A stretch of DNA of 64,000 bases from Microcaldota archaeon. GTDB taxonomy: Archaea; Micrarchaeota; Micrarchaeia; Norongarragalinales; UBA8480. This document shows positions 17,628 to 48,871 of this stretch, piece by piece. The position numbers were made by a program, and so were the translations under genes. Below the pieces are notes generated by a model. That model made no database searches. It was not told the DNA's origin and saw only the letters and a program-made list of their open reading frames with translations. How positions within the stretch are numbered: the stretch's first letter is position 1; every line of letters begins with the position of its first letter. The stretch is taken from the NCBI GenBank assembly GCA_023247085.1, contig JAHFHC010000002.1, positions 13,206 through 77,205 of the forward strand, written 5' to 3'.

Positions 17628-17679
17628 TTGGATCAATTTGCTTTAGTGTTTTCTTTTGTGGCTAACGGGGCTACGGGGA

Positions 17680-17798
17680 TTTTCACGAAACCCTTTTCTT
17701 TTTCGCGAAAAAGAAAAGTCTTTCAACCCCAAAGAAAAAGGCGTTTGCCTCTTCTTTTGGGAGTGAAGGACCTTTTCTTTCGAAGAAAAGGGCTTTCA
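17680..17798 (-). other. Non-canonical T-loop intron of tRNA-Arg (59/60)
   Basis: The 119-nt insertion splits TTCAAA from TCCCCG. The junction folds as T-stem GGGG/CCCC, a four-pair central helix TTCA/TGAA, and a three-nt AAT bulge on each strand. Cutting after the second bulge base restores TTCAAATCCCC exactly. An inner GAAA/TTTC helix closes three hairpins: 17771-17791 (9 bp), 17727-17761 (long, imperfect) and 17693-17718 (11 bp around CGCG). Confidence 0.82.
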
Positions 17799-17819
17799 TT
17801 TGAACCCCGATCCTTAGCT

Positions 17820-17857
17820 GTCTACACTCATCTTGCAGTCGTGTGACCGCGGATGTT
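17820..17857 (-). other. Anticodon-loop intron of tRNA-Arg (37/38)
   Basis: A 38-nt insertion after G37. The exon stem TTAGC/GCTAA flanks a central helix of TTGC with GTAG (two G-U wobbles), and the three-nt bulges GGA and ACA hold the cut sites. This is the standard archaeal intron position and a somewhat relaxed bulge-helix-bulge. Splicing gives loop TTGCGGA. Confidence 0.78.
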
Positions 17858-18030
17858 CCGCAAGCTAATGTTCTATCCAGGTTATACTATAGCCCCAAGA
17901 AGATTCTTGTTAGTTTTACGTTGTTTTTAGTGTGCTGGCCGCGTGGCGCGTTATTTATTGTGATTGGAAATGTATAAAAGCTTCTTTTGTCCCTACTTCT
18001 CTGCTTTTATCTAGTGCTTTATGAGTGCTT

Positions 18031-48660: not shown

Positions 48661-48730
48661 TTGTAAACCCTACACCTTTTTATTAACGAAAAAGCGGGCT
48701 CGGTGGGATTCGAACCCACGACCCTCTGGT

Positions 48731-48753
48731 TTCTTCCCTCTAGAGAATAGAGT
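48731..48753 (-). other. Anticodon-loop intron of tRNA-Lys (37/38)
   Basis: A 23-nt insertion after A37. The central helix pairs CTTT with GAAG (one G-U), with three-nt bulges TAA and AAA. The intron folds CTCT/AGAG around a seven-nt loop. Cutting after the second bulge base leaves loop CTTTTAA. Confidence 0.86.
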
Positions 48754-48775
48754 TAAAAGCCAGATGCTCTAGCCA

Positions 48776-48831
48776 TTTCAGGAACAAAGAAAAACACGGT
48801 TGCGATAATCGCTATCATGCTTCTTTATTCT
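48776..48831 (-). other. Non-canonical D-loop intron of tRNA-Lys
   Basis: A 56-nt insertion in the D loop. The central helix is TCAG/CTGA (four perfect pairs), with bulges CTA and AAT. The inner helix GAATAAAGAA/TTCTTTGTTC has ten pairs (one G-U). Cutting after the second base of each bulge gives D arm GCTCAGCTTGGCTAGAGC, with an intact GG and D stem. Confidence 0.86.
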
Positions 48832-48871
48832 AGCTGAGCTACAAGCCCACGTTAGTTTTTCGGACTGAATC

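Follow-up and report, generated by a model that had tools for sequence, protein, structure and literature searches.

How does a tRNA gene come to carry an intron of 119 nt in its T loop? The question is raised by the tRNA-Arg(GCG) gene of a micrarchaeal genome (892 kb in 36 contigs, 92% complete), which lies in a stretch of 64,000 nucleotides, referred to here as the window. The minus strand of positions 17666-17896 contains the whole interrupted gene. Its T-loop intron (17680-17798, minus strand) is a pair of units of a dispersed hairpin repeat, one inverted relative to the other. Related units interrupt unrelated tRNAs, also at positions other than this one, as well as the 16S rRNA gene, and a few lie elsewhere. 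The intron is absent from a sister species. Probably, this non-coding repeat spreads as DNA and is kept mainly where a broad-specificity splicing endonuclease of the epsilon2 type can excise it.

Once a 38-nt and a 119-nt intron are removed, the cloverleaf solver yields a full cloverleaf with acceptor stem GGGGCTA/TAGCCCC, a D arm, anticodon arm TTAGC-TTGCGGA-GCTAA (GCG) and T arm CGGGG-TTCAAAT-CCCCG. When spliced in silico, the sequence is called tRNA-Arg(gcg) by ARAGORN. The three exons, all on the minus strand, hold tRNA positions 1-37 (17858-17896), 38-59 (17799-17819) and 60-73 (17666-17679). The shorter intron (17820-17857, minus strand) occupies the canonical position 37/38 and the longer one lies at 59/60. 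The initial annotation of this DNA had placed the large T-loop intron correctly and had proposed cloverleaf and intron prediction as a check, which the solver now bears out; it had overlooked the anticodon-loop intron. This 38-nt intron has homologues in three relatives (G001, G002 and G003). In contrast to the T-loop introns, its sequence is similar throughout the genus and also in CG1_02_51_15, and it may be under constraint.

The sister species nzgw34 (G002/G040) has an orthologous tRNA-Arg(GCG) gene at the same locus, with flanks that are 92-93% identical, exons that are 100% identical and a homologous anticodon intron. Its T loop is uninterrupted and reads TTCAAATCCCC, exactly the sequence that cutting in the predicted bulges of the study gene restores, as the initial annotation had claimed. 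In the congener G001, that T-loop position is occupied by an intron of 62 nt. This intron is dissimilar to the 119-mer (local scores of 24 and 29) and is identical at 50 of 53 positions to a T-loop intron of a different tRNA in the study genome. Three congeneric genomes present three states of one T-loop site: the 119-nt intron, an unrelated 62-nt intron and an empty site. Further afield, among the relatives whose tRNA-Arg(GCG) could be solved, the T loop is in several cases interrupted by an intron of yet another sequence and in others intact. Other genes vary as well: tRNA-Asp has a T-loop intron in G001 and none in the study genome, and the anticodon introns of tRNA-Pro(TGG) differ between the two. 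The genomes are apparently draft metagenome assemblies. The 119-nt intron was probably gained recently.

Membership of the intron in a repeat family is evident from comparisons between tRNAs of different isotypes. At least 48 is the score of 85 such intron pairs, a level that no pair attained in 20 dinucleotide-shuffled sets (maximum 45). The best partner of the 119-nt intron is the T-loop intron of tRNA-Thr(TGT), with 90 of 118 aligned columns identical. Even closer matches are seen between the T-loop introns of tRNA-Leu(TAA) and tRNA-Phe (51/54) and between the anticodon intron of tRNA-Thr(CGT) and the T-loop intron of a Ser-like gene (48/51). The unit is built from a TTTTCTTT..AAAGAAAA hairpin, with a stem of the U4CU4/A4GA4 type, and an additional AAAAGAAAA tract after it. 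Such hairpins number 40 genome-wide. Of these, 32 fall within tRNA or 16S genes, which together make up about 1% of the genome, four are next to tRNA genes and four elsewhere. Terminators or ordinary intergenic repeats were rejected as an explanation of the hairpins, because 32 of the 40 are inside RNA genes; one exception (C8:8421) does have the look of an ordinary hairpin, with protein genes on either side. The 16S rRNA gene (L031, G000:C28 near 1590) is interrupted by a unit of the same family that looks like an rRNA intron. Another unit, intergenic and directly behind a protein-coding gene (L178, G000:C16 near 13825), is similar to the anticodon intron of tRNA-Arg(TCT).

In this genome, an interrupted T loop is the norm. 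Searches with the intron, with tRNAs, with tRNA 5′ halves and with the hairpin, together with cloverleaf solving that allowed for introns, assembled 43 tRNA genes, a set with some ascertainment bias, as the hairpin itself led to part of it. Of the usual set, Cys, Arg(TCG) and Glu(TTC) alone seem to be missing. After splicing, 39 of the 43 are recognized by ARAGORN, every one with a different anticodon. Introns are present in 36 genes, and 26 have one in the T loop, modelled in 24 cases exactly at 59/60. The solver failed or gave ambiguous results for Met, initiator Met, Phe and the Ser-like gene (L026), and four genes are partly resolved; for initiator Met, Phe and the Ser-like gene, the T-loop introns are clear and the remaining introns only partly resolved. 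Four genes, Pro(GGG), Gly(GCC), Leu(TAG) and Leu(CAG) (L032, L047, L173 and L174), apparently have two T-arm introns, at 53/54 and 59/60. Several T-loop introns exceed 100 nt, so the initial view that the tRNA-Arg intron is unusually large does not hold within this genome.

The T-loop junctions of tRNA-Arg(GCG) can fold as a bulge-helix-bulge (BHB) motif, with an outer GGGG/CCCC helix (4/4), a central TTCA/TGAA helix (4/4) and AAT bulges. The inner GAAA/TTTC helix has one extra G on its 3′ side, which produces a 3x1 loop in place of a pure bulge. The motif had been described as textbook; its inner side is slightly relaxed. Constraining the fold to the BHB gives -61.8 kcal/mol against -63.6 kcal/mol without the constraint, a difference of <2 kcal/mol, and the complete pre-tRNA folds far better than shuffled sequences (z -8.1). 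Two inverted repeats make up the intron: a forward unit in its 5′ half (hairpin at 17764-17798), with an 80% match in the T-loop intron of tRNA-Thr(TGT), and a reverse-oriented unit in its 3′ half (hairpin at 17687-17724), with reverse-complement matches in other tRNA introns. Because the two halves are inverted repeats of each other, the most stable form is one long irregular hairpin. The three-hairpin fold first proposed for the intron, in which the outer two hairpins form separately, is possible at -53.3 kcal/mol, ∼8 kcal/mol worse than the long hairpin.

Copies of the family occur in both orientations. In 14 pairs, the copies align far better when one is reverse-complemented; the 3′ half of the 119-nt intron is among these copies, and the T-loop intron of tRNA-Ala(TGC) scores 83 in reverse against 48 forward. 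A further reverse-oriented unit lies just behind the splicing-endonuclease gene (L175, G000:C26 near 3845), where a near-identical 29-bp stretch of the gene end flanks it on both sides; the unit is identical at 39 of 42 positions to the T-loop intron of tRNA-Leu(GAG). At the corresponding gene end, nzgw34 has a single copy of the 29-bp sequence and no insert. Duplicated 5′ parts of tRNAs stand beside units at Thr(TGT), Tyr(GTA) and Leu(CAG), and a copy of the 3′ exon is found at Thr(GGT) (L046, L028/L015, L174 and L013). In G001, the similar stretches ATGGCCGACTAAACGCGCG and ATGGCGACTAAAGAGGCGG enclose a unit that precedes the start codon of aEF-2 (L093, G001:C53 near 143). The duplications vary in length (about 17, 29 and 85-90 bp), with no fixed length as an element resembling a miniature inverted-repeat transposable element (MITE) would require. 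At the 119-nt tRNA-Arg intron itself, no target duplication was seen.

These observations suggest a scheme in which the repeat would insert as DNA in either orientation, sometimes duplicating target sequence. Copies that land in stable-RNA genes would survive, as their inverted ends together with exon sequence would form a BHB that a broad-specificity endonuclease can remove. The pre-tRNA would be cut in both bulges by an epsilon2-type (three-unit) splicing endonuclease, and the exons would be joined by RtcB to restore TTCAAATCCCC. Candidates for both enzymes are encoded in the genome. The endonuclease has PF02778 (N-terminal part) and PF01974 domains and matches, in its C-terminal part, the epsilon2 enzyme of PDB 4fz2 (E 3.7e-82). 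Its best segment is 99% identical to the nzgw34 counterpart, and nearly all of the remaining relatives bear the label Micrarchaeota, which places the genome in Candidatus Micrarchaeota. In the assembly, its gene appears as two overlapping frames that adjoin a masked (N) stretch; judging from the sequence, the enzyme is of the three-unit type. RtcB is present (E 2e-172). More tentatively, the repeat might be a self-spreading, non-autonomous DNA element for which tRNA genes are the niche. Inserted as double-stranded DNA in either orientation, it would become, through its inverted ends, an intron of any stable RNA that it hits, and the permissive endonuclease would neutralize it. A further effect of T-loop introns may be to protect tRNA genes against the integration of viruses and plasmids.

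Several points count against the spread of a repeat as DNA. Splicing in vivo at the predicted sites, circularization of the intron and mobility as DNA are predictions from sequence. Presence and absence alone cannot separate gain from loss of the 119-nt intron, and gain rests on the family pattern. Low-complexity poly-pyrimidine/poly-purine stems inflate weak similarities; the strongest pairs match outside the stems too. Introns could also pass from one tRNA gene to another by recombination or gene conversion, with no true mobile element involved, although such exchange is less easy between unrelated isotypes and into sites outside tRNA genes. Finally, no mobilizing enzyme was found: a search of the 92%-complete assembly for Y1 (RAYT-like) transposases, the only transposase family searched for, gave none. 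A scan of viral contigs gave no match to the unit, and thus no sign of a viral carrier at that stringency.

The least credible alternative is that tRNA-Arg(GCG) is a pseudogene with a junk insertion. A large insertion within an essential loop would suit this idea, but most tRNA genes of the genome are built alike and the exons are identical to those of the uninterrupted nzgw34 gene. The initial annotation had reasoned that an intact second tRNA-Arg(GCG) would mark this one as a pseudogene, and none was found in the 92%-complete assembly. The gene is thus most probably a working single-copy gene. Vertical inheritance with convergence, in which old introns are kept by a permissive endonuclease and resemble each other through A/T-rich hairpins that aid the BHB, is already strongly disfavoured and very improbable. 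The anticodon intron of tRNA-Arg(GCG) is indeed common to relatives, and the stems are of low complexity. Against this stand the Leu(TAA)/Phe and Thr(CGT)/Ser-like identities, which no shuffled pair equals in score, and the different introns that congeners hold at the same site.

Spread at the RNA level has also to be weighed. An excised, possibly circular intron could be reverse-spliced by the endonuclease and ligase, copied into cDNA and recombined into the genome, which would fit introns at BHB-capable positions and the presence of one family in 16S rRNA and in unrelated tRNAs, there at both 37/38 and 59/60. This route predicts sense copies only, whereas reverse copies exist in the T loop of tRNA-Ala(TGC) and behind the endonuclease gene, and it would not lead one to expect copies at non-spliced sites with a duplicated target of 29 bp or longer. 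The reverse copies, the duplicated target and the insert behind a protein gene therefore favour movement as DNA over reverse-splicing alone, and we regard the latter as improbable. The idea of a 'relic of a mobile RNA', raised at the outset, pointed in the right direction; the reverse-orientation copies and the insertion behind a protein gene favour a repeat moved as DNA. An extra function for the intron, suggested at the same time, found no support. At gathering thresholds, Rfam gave no match anywhere in the window, hence no known group I or group II ribozyme family. Somewhat less improbable, though still unlikely, is an integrase exchange as in the Caldiarchaeum model, in which mobile elements with intron-bearing attachment-site (att) copies of tRNAs recombine and leave introns and fragments behind; this view adds that T-loop introns may shield att sites. 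The 5′ duplications at Thr(TGT), Tyr(GTA) and Leu(CAG) and the 3′-exon copy at Thr(GGT) do resemble the tRNA-Thr fragment described in PMC3293823. However, the stretches between the duplicated parts are too short for an integrase gene, the inserts behind the endonuclease gene and before aEF-2 are not at tRNA att sites, and the inverted double copies are left unexplained.

A second interrupted tRNA gene of the window, tRNA-Lys(TTT), lies at 48695-48848 on the minus strand. The cloverleaf solver places a 56-nt D-loop intron at 48776-48831 and a 23-nt anticodon-loop intron at 48731-48753, both on the minus strand. ARAGORN reports no tRNA in the raw, unspliced window, which holds two; similar genomes would therefore wrongly be judged to be missing tRNAs.

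Spread of similar introns among tRNAs was described in Thermoproteales (Fujishima et al. 2010), as outlined in later accounts (PMC4090602, PMC4033280). Two marks of that type of intron are seen here: very similar introns in unrelated tRNAs and at different positions, and differences in presence from one close relative to another. As far as those accounts describe it, most tRNA genes are interrupted in both cases and the endonuclease is of broad specificity, but the phylum differs and the enzyme is of the epsilon2 type here versus (alpha-beta)2 there. Further contrasts with the Thermoproteales as outlined there are the strong concentration at T-loop position 59/60, the two orientations, the 16S and protein-gene sites, and the variation between congeners, in which a site may be empty or hold another intron; some of these features may occur there too. 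The disrupted tRNA-Thr of Caldiarchaeum, for which a mobile element and duplicated tRNA fragments were proposed (Sugahara et al. 2012, PMC3293823), likewise involves intron gain between close relatives and a 5′ tRNA fragment duplicated upstream. There, the insert is 1.8 kb with a recombinase gene, whereas the units described here are short, gene-free hairpins at many loci. The endonuclease of ARMAN-2 is of the epsilon2 type (PDB 4fz2), as that of the present genome is predicted to be, and the ARMAN-2 enzyme accepts non-canonical introns (PMC12397907). Heavy interruption is also known from Asgard archaea, in which 92-95% of tRNA genes are interrupted, often at non-canonical sites (PMC11291895); the available part of that report mentions neither an intron repeat family nor transposition.

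MITEs and repetitive extragenic palindromic (REP)-like repeats are short, dispersed, palindromic, non-coding and non-autonomous hairpin repeats. By comparison, the units described here are mostly inside spliced RNA genes, their duplications vary in length and no transposase has been found for them, with Y1 the family searched. No paper on the mobility of micrarchaeal tRNA introns was found in the incomplete body of literature covered. Within key literature that was covered in part, such a family in Micrarchaeota, its concentration at T-loop position 59/60, its reverse copies and a protein-gene insertion with an empty site in the sister species are apparently new.

It is not yet settled how archaeal tRNA genes come by their introns, for want of insertions caught between close relatives. 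The Micrarchaeota would provide a second independent lineage beside the Thermoproteales, with a different type of endonuclease. A unit outside RNA genes with an empty sister site, together with a T-loop site in three states, makes the mechanism directly testable.
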